A stretch of 64,000 nucleotides of DNA, from contig NZ_CAMTTF010000010.1 of NCBI RefSeq assembly GCF_947077765.1, positions 1 through 64,000 of the forward strand, in the 5' to 3' direction. This DNA comes from Salinibacter grassmerensis. Lineage in GTDB: Bacteria; Bacteroidota; Rhodothermia; Rhodothermales; Salinibacteraceae. The notes below the pieces were generated by a model that worked only from the letters and a program-made list of their open reading frames with translations, did not search any database and was not told where the DNA came from. The position numbers were made by a program, and so were the translations under genes. The first letter of the stretch is position 1. Every line of letters starts with the position of its first letter. This document shows positions 5,704-12,797 of this stretch, piece by piece.

Positions 5704-6063
5704 TCAGGCAAGTGCTTCTGCCTCCTCCCCCACGTCGCGAATCGTGCGGAGCCGGTCCATGAGAGCCGCCAGTCCAGTAAATGCCTCCGCGTTCACGCGA
5801 TGGTACACGAAAGTTCCTTCCTGGCGACTCTGGATGAGCCCAGCCTCCCGAAGCACCTTCAGGTGGTGGGAAATCGTTGGCTGGCTGAGATCAAACTCGT
5901 CCTGCAGTTCGCAGACGCAGACTTCCCCTCCTCCGTGGTAGATCAGGTCCACCATGCGAAGACGCACCTCACTCGAAAGCGCCTTAAGGCGCGTGGTGTG
6001 CCGATCGATCTCCGCGTCCGGAAGGATCTCGTGCGGCGTTCCCCCGCAGTGACACTGGGCCAT
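5704..6063 (-). CDS. ArsR-family repressor 1
   Basis: A winged-helix protein of 119 residues if started at the ATG 6061-6063 (MAQCHCGG); an upstream ATG at 6090 would add nine residues. The recognition helix is DLSQPTISHHLKVLREAGLI. It is preceded by GEVCVCELQDEF, the CxC metal-sensing segment typical of ArsR/SmtB repressors. The N-terminal CHC is an extra possible ligand. The gene stands upstream of the thioredoxin and ArsP-like permease on the same strand and probably represses both itself and them. A near-palindrome lies about 40 bp upstream (6104-6138). Confidence 0.9.
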   Translation of the reverse strand: MAQCHCGGTPHEILPDAEIDRHTTRLKALSSEVRLRMVDLIYHGGGEVCVCELQDEFDLSQPTISHHLKVLREAGLIQSRQEGTFVYHRVNAEAFTGLAALMDRLRTIRDVGEEAEALA

Positions 6064-6103
6064 GGGACGAATCCGTTGGAATGAAGGCAACTTGGTGTAA
6101 TTT

Positions 6104-6204: not shown

Positions 6205-6235
6205 TTTGATCGTTTATCGTCGATAGACGATCAAA
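6205..6235. promoter_or_regulatory. 31-bp near-perfect palindrome, orphan ArsR2-type operator
   Basis: Arms at 6205-6219 and 6221-6235 match at 14 of 15 positions around a single base. It shares CGTTTATCGTCGAT with the site upstream of arsM-arsD (11808-11821). No intact gene starts beside it: the short frame at 6245 ends after 9 codons and the dinB-like pseudogene points the other way. It may be a leftover promoter or an extra repressor site. Confidence 0.6.
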
Positions 6236-6389: not shown

Positions 6390-6887
6390 TCAGGTATCGC
6401 CGTACTCTCGCGTCAGTTGGGCCTGCCCGGCGTGGTAGGCCGTGTGCGTGAGGATGCGGGCGAGCGCCTCCTGCAGAGGGAGCGTGCCGAAATCGGCCGT
6501 CACTTCGCGGGTCCACGCCGCCTCGTCTTGCCCCGCAATGGCCTCGCCCAGCTCGCGGCCGCTGCGATCAAGAAGCGCCCGCAGGTCGTCGGCCGACCCA
6601 AAGTCCTAGCGCCGGCCTGCGTTGGGGCCGATCGTGTAGGCTTTCACGTCGAGGAAGCGTCCGAAGACGTTCTTGGCGAAGAGCAGCTCCACCTCCCCGA
6701 CGTGCCGGAGAAGCCACGCGAGCGTGTTGGCCTACGGATGCAGGCGACCCGGCAGGTCGTCATCGGTTACCTCGTCGAGCCACCCCGTCAGGCGCGTGCG
6801 ACCCTGCTCGAAAAGGGCCACGTACCGGTCGGTTACGGATTGAGACACGGAGACAAACGCATTGGTGAGTAAATCGATTAGCAGCAC
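6390..6887 (-). pseudogene. DinB-family protein with two in-frame amber codons
   Basis: From a possible GTG (6885-6887) the frame reads LLIDLLTNAFVSVSQSVTDR and continues as a DinB-like four-helix protein to a TGA at 6390-6392. It is interrupted by TAG at 6732-6734 and again at 6606-6608. Between and after the stops the sequence remains family-like (TLAWLLRHVGEVELLF; ILTHTAYHAGQAQLTREYG with the metal-binding His pair). No frameshift is needed. DinB/YfiT-like proteins are metal-dependent thiol transferases or related enzymes. The start overlaps the end of the upstream FmdB-type gene. The simplest reading is a recently inactivated last gene of the ars operon. Confidence 0.75.
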
Positions 6888-7090
6888 CCGCTCCCCGGTG
6901 TACAGCACCCGCCTTTCCGTGCAGGGTCGGAACTCCCTGTTGAAATCACCACGGAGCCGAGGCGGCGCGTCGTCTCCGAGGAGCCGCACTCGGGACAATC
7001 TGCACCCAGTCCCTCCTCATATTCGGCAACGGACGCTTCGAGGGCGAAGTCATGCTCGCAGTCCGTACAGCGGTATTCGTAGGTCGGCAT
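6878..7090 (-). CDS. FmdB-type zinc-ribbon protein
   Basis: A 70-residue protein beginning MPTYEYRCTDCEHDFALE, with a second CPECGS at 40-45, giving the CxxC...CxxC zinc ribbon of the FmdB family. It ends in a cysteine-rich tail GGCCTPGSGCC, which could bind thiophilic metalloids. The ATG at 7088-7090 is chosen because family members start MPxYEYRC; an upstream ATG at 7120 would add unrelated residues. It lies downstream of the CC-motif protein and acr3 on the same strand, so it is probably the distal part of the arsenic operon. Function in the cluster is inferred from context only. Confidence 0.8.
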   Translation of the reverse strand: MPTYEYRCTDCEHDFALEASVAEYEEGLGADCPECGSSETTRRLGSVVISTGSSDPARKGGCCTPGSGCC

Positions 7091-7177
7091 GGAAGAAAAA
7101 GATGTTTTTGAGCGAAGCACGTGGGGGAGTAAAAACTCGTTCGTTCCTCGCGTCCGGGCTTATCGGTCGCCAACGGG

Positions 7178-7489
7178 TCACATCCGCGAGGCCGCCTTGA
7201 CGTAGAGCGACTGCCAGATCCACAACTGGTCCAGGCCGACTCGGATCGGCTCGCCGTCGAGGGAGGCGAAGCTGCGGTGCACGTACACTGTGACTCCGTC
7301 CTGCTCCGTCTGTACGTACGGCTCGGGATCGCCCGGCGGCTCGGTGCTTACCGTCGCCCGGTCGACCCGCCCGCCGCAGCACCCGTGCTGGGGGCGGGTG
7401 CGAATGGTGAGCACGCCGCCTTTCTCACAGGTATGGGTCGCCGCCTCGTCGTCGATGGTGAGGTCCAGTTGGATGTCCTTAGACGGCAT
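7178..7489 (-). CDS. CC/Se-motif family small protein in the ars operon
   Basis: A 103-residue protein with GGVLTIRTRPQHGCCGG (vicinal Cys37-Cys38) and VTVYVHRSFAS further on. The pattern resembles the CC/Se motif (seleno)protein family as I recall it, small proteins with a CC or C-selenocysteine pair. A lone C21 precedes. It follows acr3 by 23 bp on the same strand and precedes the FmdB-type gene. A role in binding or moving As(III) through the vicinal thiols is plausible but inferred. A generic HesB-like fold is an alternative. Confidence 0.6.
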   Translation of the reverse strand: MPSKDIQLDLTIDDEAATHTCEKGGVLTIRTRPQHGCCGGRVDRATVSTEPPGDPEPYVQTEQDGVTVYVHRSFASLDGEPIRVGLDQLWIWQSLYVKAASRM

Positions 7490-7512: not shown

Positions 7513-8694
7513 TTAGGCGGAGATCGTTGTGCGCGCCTCGAACTGCGGGCGCGTCGCGTTGGCAATGCGCACCAGCGCCAGCATCACCGGCACTTCCACG
7601 AGCACGCCCACCACGGCGGCCAGCGCTGCCCCCGAGGTGACGCCGAACATCGCTATTGCCGATGCCACGGCGAGCTCAAAGAAGTTACTGGCCCCAATCA
7701 TCGCGGCCGGGGCGGCCACGTCGTGCGGCACCCGCCAGCCGTAGGCCCAGCCGTAGGCGATGGCAAACACGAAGAAGGTCTGCACGACGAGCGGCACCGC
7801 AATCAGGGCGATGTGGAGCGGGTTCTGGAGGATCACCTCCCCCTGGAAGGAGAACAGGAGCACGAGCGTGAGCAGCAGGCCAATCATCGTCACCGGCCCG
7901 AGTCGCTCCAGGAAGACATCGTCGAACCACTCCTCTCCCTTTGCCCGAATGATCCAGCTGCGGGACAGCGCCCCCGCCGCCAGCGGAATCACGATGTAGA
8001 GCCCCACCGACAGGAGCAGCGTATCCCACGGCACAATCACGTCCGACAGGCCGAGCAAGAACGCCACAATCGGCGCAAAGGCCACCAGCATGATGAGATC
8101 GTTGATCGACACCTGCACGAGCGTGTACGCCGGGTCCCCGTCCGTGAGGTAGCTCCACACGAACACCATCGCCGTGCAGGGGGCCGCCCCCAGCAAAATC
8201 GCCCCGGCCACGTACTCGCTCGCCAGGCCCGGCTCGATGAGCGGGGCAAAGACGCCCTTCAGGAACAGCCACGCGAAGCCGAACATCGTGAACGGCTTGA
8301 TCAGCCAGTTCACCACGAGCGTCACGGTGAGGCCCTTCGGGTGGCGCCGCACGCCGAGAATGCTCTTGAAATCGACCTGCACCATCATCGGGTAGATCAT
8401 CGCCCAGATGAGGATGGCGATCGGCAGATTGACCTGCGCCACCTCCATCTCTCCCAGCACATTGGGCACAGCCGGAATCAGCTGGCCGATGGCCACGCCC
8501 GCGGCAATACAGAGGGCCACCCACAGGCTCAGGTAACGCTCGAAGAAGCCGAGGCCCTCCTGCGCCTTCTCGGCGGTGGCCTCCAAATCGTCGCCCGGGC
8601 CATTTTCGGAATGGCCGTTCTCGGGGTGTCCGTTGCTGGCGATCGAGGATGAAGAGGCAGAAGTCGGGTCGCCGGTCGTCGTCTGCTCGGACAT
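7513..8694 (-). CDS. acr3: ACR3-family arsenite efflux permease
   Basis: A 393-residue protein with ten membrane segments. The family-defining PCTAMVFVW motif places C173 in the conserved mid-membrane position essential in ACR3. A 45-residue polar, low-complexity N-terminal extension (SASSSSIASNGHPENGHSEN) precedes the first helix. ACR3 exports As(III) using the proton-motive force. In Salinibacter-like genomes it may pair with an ArsA ATPase, and arsA lies directly upstream on the same strand. The CC-motif gene follows 23 bp downstream. An antisense frame covering the same bases is a GC-rich shadow. Confidence 0.95.
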   Translation of the reverse strand: MSEQTTTGDPTSASSSSIASNGHPENGHSENGPGDDLEATAEKAQEGLGFFERYLSLWVALCIAAGVAIGQLIPAVPNVLGEMEVAQVNLPIAILIWAMIYPMMVQVDFKSILGVRRHPKGLTVTLVVNWLIKPFTMFGFAWLFLKGVFAPLIEPGLASEYVAGAILLGAAPCTAMVFVWSYLTDGDPAYTLVQVSINDLIMLVAFAPIVAFLLGLSDVIVPWDTLLLSVGLYIVIPLAAGALSRSWIIRAKGEEWFDDVFLERLGPVTMIGLLLTLVLLFSFQGEVILQNPLHIALIAVPLVVQTFFVFAIAYGWAYGWRVPHDVAAPAAMIGASNFFELAVASAIAMFGVTSGAALAAVVGVLVEVPVMLALVRIANATRPQFEARTTISA

Positions 8695-8742: not shown

Positions 8743-10542
8743 TTACACGTCGGCCAGCACCGGCTCGGCGGCACCGCGGGCCAGGGCCTGCAGGCGCTCG
8801 GGGCCGACCGGCTCCTCGGGCATCCAGGGCGCAAGAGCCGTGCGCTCGGCGTGCTGTTCTTGCACGAGCTCGATCTGCGATCCCTCGGCGTGGGCGCGCT
8901 CCACCAACAGCGGGTCCGACGGCCCGGCCGCCGCTAAGCTCTGGTTTACGACCCACGCGTAGGGCGCAATGCCGGCCCGCTCCAGGTCGTCCTGCAGCTG
9001 CTTTGCTTCGAGGACCGGCGTCGTCTCCGGCAGCGTCACCAGCAGCATCTTCGTGTAGTCGGGGTCCTGCAGTCGCATGAGCGGGGTGGTGATGCGGCCT
9101 GCCTCGATTTCGCTCGTGCGCATCACCTCGCGGTGGTAGGACCCGGTCGTGTCGAGAAGGAGGAGCGTGTGGCCCGTCGGCGCCGTGTCCATCACCACGA
9201 ACTGGCGCTGCGCCGTGCTAATCTCGCGAGCAAAAGCGCGGAAGACGGCCACCTCCTGGGTACAGGGCGAGCGCAGGTCTTCCTCCAAAAGCTCCCGCTC
9301 CTCGGGATCGAGGTCCTTGCCTTTCGTCTTGAGGACGCGCTCGCGGTACCGGCGCGTGGCCTCCTCGGGGTCGATGGCGCTTACCTCCAGGTTCGGGAGC
9401 GCGTCGCTGCCCACCGCGTCGGCGATGTGCGCGGCCGGGTCGGTGGTCGTGAGCAGCACCTCCTCGCCCCGCCGCGCTAGGTCGACGGCCACGGACGCGG
9501 CAATCGTCGTCTTGCCCACGCCCCCCTTCCCCATCACCATCACGAGCCCTTGCCCGTCGCCTGCGAAGCCGTCGACCAGCTCGTGGACGGTCGGCAGGTC
9601 GATGTCCGGAGCCTGTTCCGTGCCGTTCGTCCCCGTGTCGTTCGTCGCTGTCGCCGCCGGTTCATCGCTCAACAGCGCGCGGAGCGAATCGAGCCCCACG
9701 AGGTTATGGCCTTTCAGTGGCACCGTGTCGCGCGGAAGGTCCTTCAGCGTGTCCGGGATGCCCTCAAGGGCCTCCCCGGTGCGGCACTCCATGGCCGCGG
9801 CCAGGGGGTCGCCGGCATCCTGCGCGCGGAAAATGCCGTTTACGACGAGCCGCTGGTTCACGACGTCCAAGTCCCGCAGCTCGCGGCTCGACCGCGCGGC
9901 CTCCTTGAGGGCCGCCGCCTCCGGGCGGCTCACCAGCACGAGCGTCGTCCGGCCTGCGTCCTGCAAGGCCTCCACGGCGGCGGTGTAGCGCTCCTGCTGC
10001 GCCTCCAGCCCCGAGACGGGCCCAAGGCACGAGGCGCCGTCCGGATTCTCCTCGATGTAGTCGCTCCAGGCAGCAGGCAACTCCAACAGGCGCAACGTGT
10101 GGCCCGTGGGGGCCGTGTCGAAGACGACGTGATCGTAGGTCTCCCCCTCGTCCCCGGCCAGAAACTGAGTAAACTTGTCGAACGAGGCGATCTCGGTGGT
10201 GCAAGCGCCGGAGAGCTGCTCCTCGACCTGCTCGACCGTTTCGTCCGGCAAAACGCCCACCATCGGCTCGATCACGCGCTCGCGGTACTCGTCCGCCGCG
10301 GCCTCCGGATCGATGTTAACGGCCGAGAGGTTCGGCACCGAGTCGACGGAGCCGGCGGTATCGCCGACGGGCGCGCCCAAGACCTCTTTGAGGTTGGAGG
10401 CCGGATCGGTGCTTACCAGGAGCACCTCGCGCCCCTCGTCGGCCAGGCGAACGGCCGAGGCACAGGCGAGCGACGTCTTGCCCACCCCGCCCTTGCCGGT
10501 AAAGAAGAGGTAGCGCGGGGGAGCGTCGAGAAACGACAGCAT
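8743..10542 (-). CDS. arsA: ArsA arsenite-stimulated ATPase (duplicated)
   Basis: 599 residues from the ATG at 10540-10542, next to the first P-loop; an upstream ATG at 10704 would add 54 residues overlapping the previous gene. Two homologous halves each have a deviant Walker A, GKGGVGKT at 16-23 and 338-345, and a DTAPTGHTL signature. Three cysteines that form the allosteric As(III) site in E. coli ArsA are conserved: C114 (SGACTTEIA), C172 (ASCLGPV) and C427 (SPCTQEVA). The linker around 295-315 is polar and low-complexity. ArsA energises the efflux permease and receives As(III) from ArsD; here the ArsD domain is fused to the gene immediately upstream. Confidence 0.95.
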   Translation of the reverse strand: MLSFLDAPPRYLFFTGKGGVGKTSLACASAVRLADEGREVLLVSTDPASNLKEVLGAPVGDTAGSVDSVPNLSAVNIDPEAAADEYRERVIEPMVGVLPDETVEQVEEQLSGACTTEIASFDKFTQFLAGDEGETYDHVVFDTAPTGHTLRLLELPAAWSDYIEENPDGASCLGPVSGLEAQQERYTAAVEALQDAGRTTLVLVSRPEAAALKEAARSSRELRDLDVVNQRLVVNGIFRAQDAGDPLAAAMECRTGEALEGIPDTLKDLPRDTVPLKGHNLVGLDSLRALLSDEPAATATNDTGTNGTEQAPDIDLPTVHELVDGFAGDGQGLVMVMGKGGVGKTTIAASVAVDLARRGEEVLLTTTDPAAHIADAVGSDALPNLEVSAIDPEEATRRYRERVLKTKGKDLDPEERELLEEDLRSPCTQEVAVFRAFAREISTAQRQFVVMDTAPTGHTLLLLDTTGSYHREVMRTSEIEAGRITTPLMRLQDPDYTKMLLVTLPETTPVLEAKQLQDDLERAGIAPYAWVVNQSLAAAGPSDPLLVERAHAEGSQIELVQEQHAERTALAPWMPEEPVGPERLQALARGAAEPVLADV

Positions 10543-10579: not shown

Positions 10580-11788
10580 TTACGCGGGCTCAAGGCCGGC
10601 CATCCGGACGAATTCGTCGCGCGAGGGGTACGTCCAGCGGGATTGGATCTCCCCGCCGACCAGCACGATGGGGAGCACGTCCTGTCCCTCACGCTGGAGG
10701 GCATCGTATACGACCGGCGTGTCGGTGAACCTCTCCGGATGGGAAGCCGGGTTATAGCGCTCGACGATAACGCCCTGCCGCTCCAGCCAGCGCAGTGCGC
10801 CGTTCACGGCGACGAGCGTGTCGTCGGGGTCGGGGCCACAAACGCCGGTCGAGCAGCACATCGGGGAATCGAAGACTTCGACTTTCGGAGTCGGCGCGGC
10901 GGACTCGGGACAAGAGGAGATCGGCTCGCTCTCGACTGACTCGTTCTCGACCGACGCAAAGTCTACCGGCCGGCGGCCCCGCACCGTGACGCTCCAGATC
11001 CCCCCCTCCTCCAGCGCCGCCCGGTCCGCGTCAGTCAGCGTATCGGGAAGCGCCTCCTCCGGCAGGTCGATGCGGCGACGGGACAGGACCTCGACCTCCT
11101 CGAATCCTACTGCGCCCAGCAGGTCCAGGTATTCGGACTCCTCGATTGCCCCCGCCACACAGCCCGCGTAGAGCTCGGCGGAGCGTCGGACCTCATCCGG
11201 GAGCGGGCCGCCCGCGACAACGTCCGACACGCAGAAATGCCCGCTGGGACGGAGGACCTTCTGCATCTCAGCAAAGGCCTGCACCTTATCGGGCACGAGG
11301 TTGAGCACGCAGTTCGAGAGGACGACGTCGGCCGTCTCATCGGTCAGCGGCAGATCCTCGATGTCTCCCTCCAGGAACTCGACGTTCTCTACACCCAGTT
11401 TTTGGGCATTCGTCCGGGCCTTTTCCACCATCTCGGGCGCGAAGTCGACCCCAATGACGCGACCGGTCTCCCCGACGACGCGCCGGGCGACGAAGGCGTC
11501 GAGCCCGGCCCCCGAGCCCAGATCGACCACCGTTTGCCCCGGCTCAAGCCCGGCGTAATCGGTCGGCACCCCGCAGCCGAGCTTCAGGTCCGCATCGGCT
11601 ACGTAGCCCTCAACCGTGTCGTAGGCCTCGCCGATCATGTTGACGGCAGCCTCTTCTTCGGCATCGTCGCAACACGATCCGGCGTCGGTCTCGCAACATC
11701 CCTCTTCCTCCTCCCGGGCAATGGCGGCGTACTTGGCCCGGACCGCCTCGCGAACCTCTCGGGCAGAAGAATCGAACGTGTCGGACAT
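10580..11788 (-). CDS. ArsM arsenite methyltransferase fused to ArsD metallochaperone
   Basis: 402 residues from the ATG at 11786-11788; starting at 11872 would translate across a probable operator. Residues 1-275 are an ArsM-type SAM methyltransferase: VDLGSGAGLDAF (motif I) and the three As(III)-binding cysteines C72 (LGCGVPT), C160 (SNCVLNL) and C210 (YAGCVAGA). A further CC...CC cluster lies at 31-40. After a polar linker, residues 301-402 are ArsD-like, with MCCSTGVCG giving C311, C312 and C317, the As(III) triad of ArsD. The frame is continuous. Neighbours are arsC upstream and arsA 37 bp downstream. The fusion may couple detection, methylation and delivery of As(III) to ArsA; that coupling is inference. 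Confidence 0.9.
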   Translation of the reverse strand: MSDTFDSSAREVREAVRAKYAAIAREEEEGCCETDAGSCCDDAEEEAAVNMIGEAYDTVEGYVADADLKLGCGVPTDYAGLEPGQTVVDLGSGAGLDAFVARRVVGETGRVIGVDFAPEMVEKARTNAQKLGVENVEFLEGDIEDLPLTDETADVVLSNCVLNLVPDKVQAFAEMQKVLRPSGHFCVSDVVAGGPLPDEVRRSAELYAGCVAGAIEESEYLDLLGAVGFEEVEVLSRRRIDLPEEALPDTLTDADRAALEEGGIWSVTVRGRRPVDFASVENESVESEPISSCPESAAPTPKVEVFDSPMCCSTGVCGPDPDDTLVAVNGALRWLERQGVIVERYNPASHPERFTDTPVVYDALQREGQDVLPIVLVGGEIQSRWTYPSRDEFVRMAGLEPA

Positions 11789-11807: not shown

Positions 11808-11835
11808 CGTTTATCGTCGATGTTCGATACATCGA
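11808..11835. promoter_or_regulatory. Candidate ArsR2 operator upstream of arsM-arsD
   Basis: TCGATGT (11817-11823) and ACATCGA (11829-11835) form an inverted repeat, preceded by CGTTTATCGTCGAT, which is identical to half of the orphan palindrome at 6205-6235. It lies 20 bp upstream of the chosen start, which supports that start and suggests an internal promoter between arsC and arsM-arsD. Confidence 0.5.
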
Positions 11836-11915: not shown

Positions 11916-12347
11916 CTATTCGGCTTCTGTCGACTCCGAGGCAAACGCCTCGTCGATCCAGGCCGCGAGCTCGTCCCGCACCCGCCGGAAGACGGCCCGC
12001 CGTTCCTCTTCCGTTCCCTCGGCCGCAGAGGGGTCCTCGAACGACCGGTGCAGGTTCTCCTTCTCGGCCGGCAGGTACGGACAGGCCTCCCGTGCGGCGT
12101 CACAGACGGTCACCACCACGTCGAAGGTCCGATCGCCCAGGTCCTCGATCGTCTTGGACGTGTGGCCGGCCAGATCGACGCCGATCTCCTCCATTACGTC
12201 AAGGGCCAGTGGGCGGACGTGCGTTCGTTCGGTGCCAGCGCTGTGGGCGTCGTACCGGTCGCTGTAGCGGTCACGCAAAAGGCCTTCGGCCATCTGAGAG
12301 CGCGCTGAGTTGTGGGTGCAGACGAAGAGAACGGAGGTCTTTTTCAT
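11916..12347 (-). CDS. arsC: ArsC, thioredoxin-coupled arsenate reductase
   Basis: 143 residues of the low-molecular-weight phosphatase fold. The P-loop is CTHNSARS (C10 to S17), and a second pair, C82 and C89, lies in VTVCDAAREACPYLPA. This spacing of 10/82/89 matches the three redox cysteines of the well-studied Staphylococcus aureus enzyme, so electrons should come from thioredoxin. It reduces As(V) to As(III), feeding ArsM, ArsA and Acr3 downstream. It follows arsR2 on the same strand with a 16-bp tandem array in the 78-bp gap. No purine-rich ribosome-binding site is obvious just upstream. Confidence 0.95.
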   Translation of the reverse strand: MKKTSVLFVCTHNSARSQMAEGLLRDRYSDRYDAHSAGTERTHVRPLALDVMEEIGVDLAGHTSKTIEDLGDRTFDVVVTVCDAAREACPYLPAEKENLHRSFEDPSAAEGTEEERRAVFRRVRDELAAWIDEAFASESTEAE

Positions 12348-12362
12348 AACGAGCGGAGGAAC

Positions 12363-12435
12363 TAGCAGGAGGAGAAATTAGCAGGAGGAGAAATTAGCAG
12401 GAGAAGAAATTAGCAGGAGAAGAAATTAGCAGGAG
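12363..12435. repeat. 16-bp tandem array between arsR2 and arsC
   Basis: Four full units and a partial one share TAGCAGGAGRAGAAAT, with G-type units followed by A-type units. The rightmost copy includes the arsR2 stop codon. Read on the minus strand, each unit begins with the last arsR2 codons and a TAA, so the array appears to be a repeated copy of the gene's 3' end. Confidence 0.9.
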
Positions 12436-12758
12436 ATGGAATCGGCGGCCGTCGAGAGGCCGTCGAAGAACGTATCGAACTGATCACGCAGTGCCGCGAT
12501 GGGCTCCGGATCGAGGCAGTAGCAAACGCTTGGGCCGTCGACGGTGCCCTGGATAAGCCCCGCCTCTTTTAGCACCTTCAGGTGGCGGGACACGGTGGAT
12601 TGGGCAAGCGGCAGGTCTTCGACGATTTCCCCGCAGATGCACTCGGACCGTTCGGCCAGCACGCGCAGAATAGCCAGCCGGGCCGGATGGGAGAGCGCCT
12701 TGGCCTGCTCGGCTATCTCGGTTGTCTCGGCGTCGAACTGGTCAGCTTTCGTTTGCAT
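12426..12758 (-). CDS. arsR: ArsR-family repressor 2
   Basis: A 110-residue winged-helix protein. SECICGEIVEDLPLAQSTVS then RHLKVLKEAGLIQG gives the CxC sensing segment at the start of the DNA-binding region and a canonical recognition helix. The C-terminus ends DSISC, adding another cysteine. It heads the ars cluster arsR-arsC-arsM/D-arsA-acr3 and should repress it until As(III) binds. It differs clearly from repressor 1 at 5704-6063, fitting the two operator classes seen. TCG/CGA-rich candidate sites lie upstream (12776-12797) and before arsM-arsD. Confidence 0.92.
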   Translation of the reverse strand: MQTKADQFDAETTEIAEQAKALSHPARLAILRVLAERSECICGEIVEDLPLAQSTVSRHLKVLKEAGLIQGTVDGPSVCYCLDPEPIAALRDQFDTFFDGLSTAADSISC

Positions 12759-12775: not shown

Positions 12776-12797
12776 TTTATAATCGTCGATATTCGAT
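12776..12797. promoter_or_regulatory. Candidate ArsR2 operator at the ars operon head
   Basis: The segment contains ATCGTCGATATTCGAT, sharing ATCGTCGAT with the sites at 6205-6235 and 11808-11835, and lies about 20 bp upstream of the arsR2 start. Symmetry here is weaker than at the orphan palindrome. Confidence 0.4.

Follow-up and report, generated by a model that had tools for sequence, protein, structure and literature searches.

Organization of the locus

The window, by which we mean the whole 64,000-nucleotide stretch of Salinibacter grassmerensis DNA that was analysed, carries an arsenic operon read from the minus strand in the order arsR, an ArsC-type homologue, a fused arsM-arsD gene, arsA, acr3, a CC/Se-motif family protein and an FmdB-type zinc ribbon, with a second arsR later on (Table 1). 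The fused gene is present as a single copy in the genome and lies exactly where the first-pass annotation had placed it; the minus strand holds the uninterrupted frame, and the plus-strand translation of the same interval holds a stop. That annotation had also named arsA as the next gene, which agrees with a TIGR04291 score well above the cut-off of 650 bits. The ArsC-type protein reached 124 bits against TIGR02691, below the cut-off of 174. A CC/Se-motif protein (NF041239) also follows acr3 in the related fusion operons L047 and L048.

A 16-base motif, ATCGTCGATRTTCGAT, occurs at only two sites in the 3.78-Mb genome when up to one mismatch is allowed, one before arsR and the other before the fused gene, and at up to two mismatches there were three occurrences in the window against 0.08 expected. 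A similar motif (TATCGNAYATCGACGATAA, coding strand) lies ahead of the gene in the relatives L009, L010, L015 and L018. We read this element as a putative ArsR operator. A copy with two mismatches was seen by the second arsR, and a 16-bp tandem repeat, in 4.6 copies, occupies the spacer that separates arsR from the ArsC-type gene.

Table 1. Positions of the genes, protein domains and sequence elements discussed in the text; positions are those of the window unless another locus is named.
Feature	Position	Strand	Details
second arsR	5704-6090	minus	
copy of operator-like motif	6216-6231		2 mismatches; by second arsR
FmdB-type zinc ribbon	6878-7120	minus	
CC/Se-motif family protein	7178-7489	minus	NF041239, 72 bits
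acr3, arsenite efflux permease	7513-8694	minus	TIGR00832, 414 bits
arsA, As(III)-pump ATPase	8743-10542	minus	TIGR04291, 802 bits; 37 bp past the stop of the fusion
arsM-arsD fused gene	10580-11788	minus	single frame, 402 aa plus stop
ArsD metallochaperone domain	10583-10885	minus	residues 302-402; C311-C312-C317
linker	10886-10963	minus	residues 276-301, about 26 aa, disordered
ArsM arsenite methyltransferase domain	10964-11767	minus	residues 8-275; As(III) cysteines C72, C160, C210
operator-like motif	11813-11828	plus	ATCGTCGATGTTCGAT; upstream of fused gene
ArsC-type arsenate reductase homologue	11916-12347	minus	low-molecular-weight phosphatase fold, PF01451
16-bp tandem repeat	12363-12436		TAGCAGGAGAAGAAAT, 4.6 copies
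arsR repressor	12426-12758	minus	NF033788, 78 bits
operator-like motif, second copy	12782-12797	plus	upstream of arsR
222-bp repeat, Longimonas halophila	L051:5796-6017 (G014:C15)		between arsM and arsD; ends TAACG...CGTTA
ArsM-ArsD-AhpD triple fusions, Acidobacteriota	L078:2213-3673 (also L157); L170:1234-2697		arsA next

The fused protein

Both domains that had been proposed from the letters of the sequence scored above curated profile cut-offs in the one frame, and the six cysteines named with them are all where they were said to be. The N-terminal half matches NCBIfam NF008823 with 322 bits (cut-off 263), and its three As(III) cysteines align to C72, C174 and C224 of C. merolae ArsM (4kw7). 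Residues 302-400 match the ArsD profiles PF06953 (118 bits; cut-off 27) and NF033727 (109.6 bits; cut-off 90). By sequence, the closest PDB chains to the fusion are ArsM proteins, and those matching its ArsD domain are 3ktb, 3mwh and 3kgk. The ArsD cysteines lie within CCSTGVC, a CC-x4-C arrangement that is the counterpart of the Cys12-13-18 site described for ArsD (PMC12607644). Inspection of the sequence found none of the C-terminal vicinal cysteine pairs in the window ArsD; Cys12-Cys13 alone is conserved in all ArsD, and the C-terminal pairs are not defining (PMC12607644). Among the relatives, two such pairs are found in L038 and L039 and one in L016. Further cysteines in the fusion are C31/C32, C39/C40, C186 and C293.

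The predicted structure of the whole protein (mean pLDDT 72.8, pTM 0.56) shows two confidently modelled domains and, between them, a disordered linker, of which residues 277-297 have pLDDT below 50. The N-terminal domain model superimposes on CrArsM 5evj (Z 24.0, rmsd 2.1, 197 aligned) and CmArsM 6cx6 (Z 23.2, rmsd 2.2, 199 aligned); these structural matches concern the methyltransferase domain, while the ArsD assignment comes from sequence matches. The model gives the two domains no fixed orientation, and so does not indicate a direct cysteine-to-cysteine transfer path. Downstream of ArsM, the linker has no in-frame ATG, GTG or TTG ahead of M310, which indicates that free ArsD is not initiated there.

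Distribution and conservation

A search of related genomes for the same fusion, which the first-pass annotation had put forward as a check, found it, full-length and without a stop, in nine species of the class besides that of the window, making ten species in two families in a survey of 244 genomes: six in the genus of the window (window included), one in a second genus of that family and three in family f13. Named records carrying it, among the matches listed, are Salinibacter altiplanensis AN15, a Salinivenus MAG and a Rubrivirga MAG. Restriction of the fusion to the species of the window is thereby ruled out. Seven cysteines (C32, C72, C160, C210, C311, C312 and C317) are invariant across the ten fusions. 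Nei-Gojobori dN/dS values were 0.17-0.25 for ArsM, 0.07-0.16 for ArsD and 0.45-1.5 for the linker, indicating that both halves are maintained as protein and that the linker alone drifts. All six ArsD genes of the Salinibacter-like genus are fused; across the class, 10 of the 54 genomes with ArsD have the ArsM fusion and the majority lack it, a proportion that we count against a coupling role.

Outside the class, ArsM-ArsD-AhpD triple fusions of 487-488 aa, belonging to a distant ArsM lineage and located upstream of arsA, were found in two of 347 Acidobacteriota genomes, 21 of which have ArsD over the cut-off. Further candidates from that phylum, with frames of 295-473 aa, were rejected, as they hold only ArsD or ArsD-AhpD after an unrelated open frame. 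Among 398 Pseudomonadota genomes no ArsD genome had an ArsD frame longer than 268 aa, in a 395-genome sample of Bacteroidota long ArsD frames occurred nowhere outside the Salinibacter-like (f1) and Rubrivirga-like (f13) families, and among 2586 plasmid records with a match none covered 80% of the query. Most ArsD frames in families f16, f17 and f20 measure 190-240 aa (L040:1135-1824, L127-L156), and the ones examined, L040 and L132, have a C-terminal AhpD-like stretch, making them fusions of the ArsD-AhpD type.

A probably split relative in Longimonas

In Longimonas halophila (G014, L018, L051), arsM, arsD and arsA are separate frames in the same order, and in a congener (G021) the gene is fused. 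Between arsM and arsD of L. halophila lies a 222-bp repeat, flanked on both sides by CCTACC and present in at least 20 copies or pieces in G014; both flanks of the spacer align to the linker of G021. A TAA codon ends arsM immediately ahead of the repeat, whose far end provides AGGAGG and, ten bases on, an ATG that is in register with the ArsD remnant (MPLPTFSASLNRTKAT...). Most simply, the repeat broke up a gene that had been fused, which we think quite probable; the alternative is that the repeat was inserted between genes that had never been fused and that fusion took place in G021 only. Every copy of the repeat that was read has an ATG pointing outward at its right end, and the arsM/arsD copy has AGGAGG as well, so that insertions of this element could create new gene starts. 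The first-pass annotation had held that separate arsM and arsD genes with a stop in the linker would imply a local error in the window. Such a pair was found once, in L. halophila, but it does not carry that implication, because the linker there holds a multicopy repeat.

Probable repeated joining of ArsM to ArsD

The two halves of the fusion have different groupings within the genus. By ArsD, and likewise by ArsA, the window sequence (L001), L011 and L014 stand apart from L009, L012 and L013, whereas by ArsM, L001 and L009 stand apart from L011-L014, the latter group adjoining the stand-alone ArsM proteins L031 and L032. Between the window and L011, identity is 56% for ArsM (dS 1.64) and 93% for ArsD (dS 0.41). 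A single fusion lineage in the genus was ruled out, since one ArsM clade for the six fusions was rejected (AU p 4e-6), and imposing the ArsM grouping on ArsD was rejected as well (AU p 2e-5). One ArsD clade for the f1 and f13 fusions was not rejected (AU p 0.29). The upstream operon layout changes with ArsM type: type A has arsR-arsC-[motif]-arsMD (window, L047) and type B has arsR-arsMD (L048, and the upstream sequence of L011, L012 and L014).

These conflicting groupings indicate that a single ArsD lineage acquired more than one kind of ArsM gene, and suggest that the two distinct ArsM lineages came to sit on it either through recombination at the linker or through fusion in parallel. Judged from these sequences, the ArsM-ArsD junction appears to have been made or swapped more than once.

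Association of ArsD with ArsA

Among the 244 genomes of the class, ArsD was found in 54 and ArsA in 58, with both in 53 (Fisher p 1e-46), and ArsD showed no association with ArsM (p 0.22); both p-values overstate independence because the genomes are related. The sole genome with ArsD only, G113, is 64% complete and its ArsD is cut off, and in the five ArsA-only genomes the ArsA matches are partial or interrupted. At every fused locus looked at, including those of Acidobacteriota, arsA is the next gene. The locus L049 has the same arsR-arsC-arsM start and no ArsD, and within its 9.8 kb a piece of ACR3 is present while ArsA has no match. From this co-occurrence, the adjacency of arsA and the content of L049, we conclude that ArsA most likely remains the partner that the fused ArsD supplies. 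A partial ArsA with two in-frame TGA codons (G009:C5:256916-257716), in a same-genus relative without ArsD, is probably what is left of a decayed ars operon.

Proposed function and alternatives

The single frame, the intact sites, selection on both halves, recurrence, linkage to ArsA and the operator-like motif lead us to favor, at a probability of about 0.6, a single bifunctional ArsM-ArsD polypeptide whose tether places the methylase at the ArsA/ACR3 pump. The ArsM domain would bind As(III) on C72, C160 and C210 and methylate it with SAM, and the ArsD domain, on its flexible linker, would bind As(III) on C311, C312 and C317 and pass it to ArsA, which would drive ACR3. ArsR would repress the operon and arsenite would induce it. 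The tether would hold methylase and chaperone at 1:1 and seat the methylase at the entry of the pump, where free As(III) would be either expelled or methylated beside ArsA. Catalysis, As(III) transfer and control by ArsR are what we infer from knowledge of these families, and it is the architecture that suggests that the tether couples the two fates of As(III). The first-pass annotation had proposed that methylation and delivery to the pump share, or compete for, one supply of arsenic; the genome comparisons speak to a narrower point, a lasting tie of the ArsD half to ArsA and an ArsM join that was retained and apparently re-formed. Two observations besides the minority of fused genomes and the lack of a fixed domain orientation in the model count against such coupling: the window ArsD is without C-terminal vicinal cysteine pairs, and Longimonas apparently lives with the split form.

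In a more ambitious version of this reading, which we regard as tentative, the fusion would be a selected and repeatedly re-made branch-point device, with an ArsD half locked to ArsA and interchangeable methylase halves, and the protein would decide between expulsion and methylation at the mouth of the pump.

It is rather unlikely, in our judgment, that the fusion is passive, with independent domains made from one promoter in a single ribosome run and a tether that does nothing beyond setting a 1:1 dose. A disordered, drifting linker, the occurrence of ArsM and ArsD apart in relatives and the Longimonas split are all compatible with this, as is the fact that the ArsM half differs in lineage and the ArsD half does not, which speaks against tight co-evolution of the domains. 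Against it, the join was apparently made or swapped more than once and persists under strong selection on both halves, and the Salinibacter-like genus has no unfused ArsD among its six.

Less likely again is feeding in cis, in which the ArsD domain would chiefly supply As(III) to the active site of ArsM, with ArsA in a secondary role. Short ArsM proteins do bear other C-terminal thiol modules (the NCBIfam ArsM/AhpD and ArsM/DUF2284 selenoproteins), and the Acidobacteriota proteins combine ArsM, ArsD and AhpD, but the presence of ArsD follows ArsA rather than ArsM, and L049 keeps its ArsM where ArsD is missing and no ArsA match is found.

An assembly frameshift or lost stop joining two separate genes has almost no probability left, even with separate frames in Longimonas: those are interrupted by a repeat, linker lengths vary among the fusions with the frame kept, and nine further species of the class, S. 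altiplanensis AN15 among them, share the fused frame, which rules out sequencing error or a chance frame.

Returning to the bifunctional ArsM-ArsD polypeptide, several known systems are comparable. ArsRM of Brevundimonas sp. M20 (PMC10190100) is also an As(III) methyltransferase fused to an ars protein and reported to be bifunctional, but there the methyltransferase is joined to a repressor domain, As(III) is bound at a site other than the three-cysteine one of ArsM, and the protein binds its own promoter, which precedes a met operon, and has no tie to a pump. In ArsSM of a sulfate reducer, as cited in PMC12124457 (Yang et al., 2024), ArsM is likewise fused to a second arsenic protein, which that citation gives as ArsS rather than an ArsD chaperone. 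The reviewed ars fusions ArsN-ArsD, ArsR-ArsC, Acr3-ArsC and AqpS-ArsC (PMC6205960) show that ars proteins, ArsD included, are known in fusion with others encoded in their operon; ArsD is paired in that set with the putative acetyltransferase ArsN, and none of these fusions joins a methyltransferase to ArsD. The R773 ArsD shares with the window ArsD the CC-x4-C site, an ArsD family score and a gene adjoining arsA, but it is free-standing, at about 120 aa, has extra C-terminal cysteine pairs and feeds ArsAB, whereas the window ArsD is fused to ArsM and adjoins ArsA-ACR3. The ArsM/AhpD and ArsM/DUF2284 selenoproteins (NF041537 and NF041536) have a related ArsM and a C-terminal thiol module, but they differ in the module and in having selenocysteine; against these profiles the fusion reaches 169 and 150 bits, below their cut-offs of 510 and 575. 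An ArsM-ArsD fusion was not found in the open-licence literature searched, which makes its novelty provisional; domain databases may already display this architecture.

Methylation and ATP-driven efflux are usually treated as separate, possibly competing routes, and this fusion physically joins them. The fused and split genomes within the genus Longimonas are natural material on the effect of tethering on metalloid fate, and the different methylase halves carried by one chaperone lineage form a natural series for the same question.
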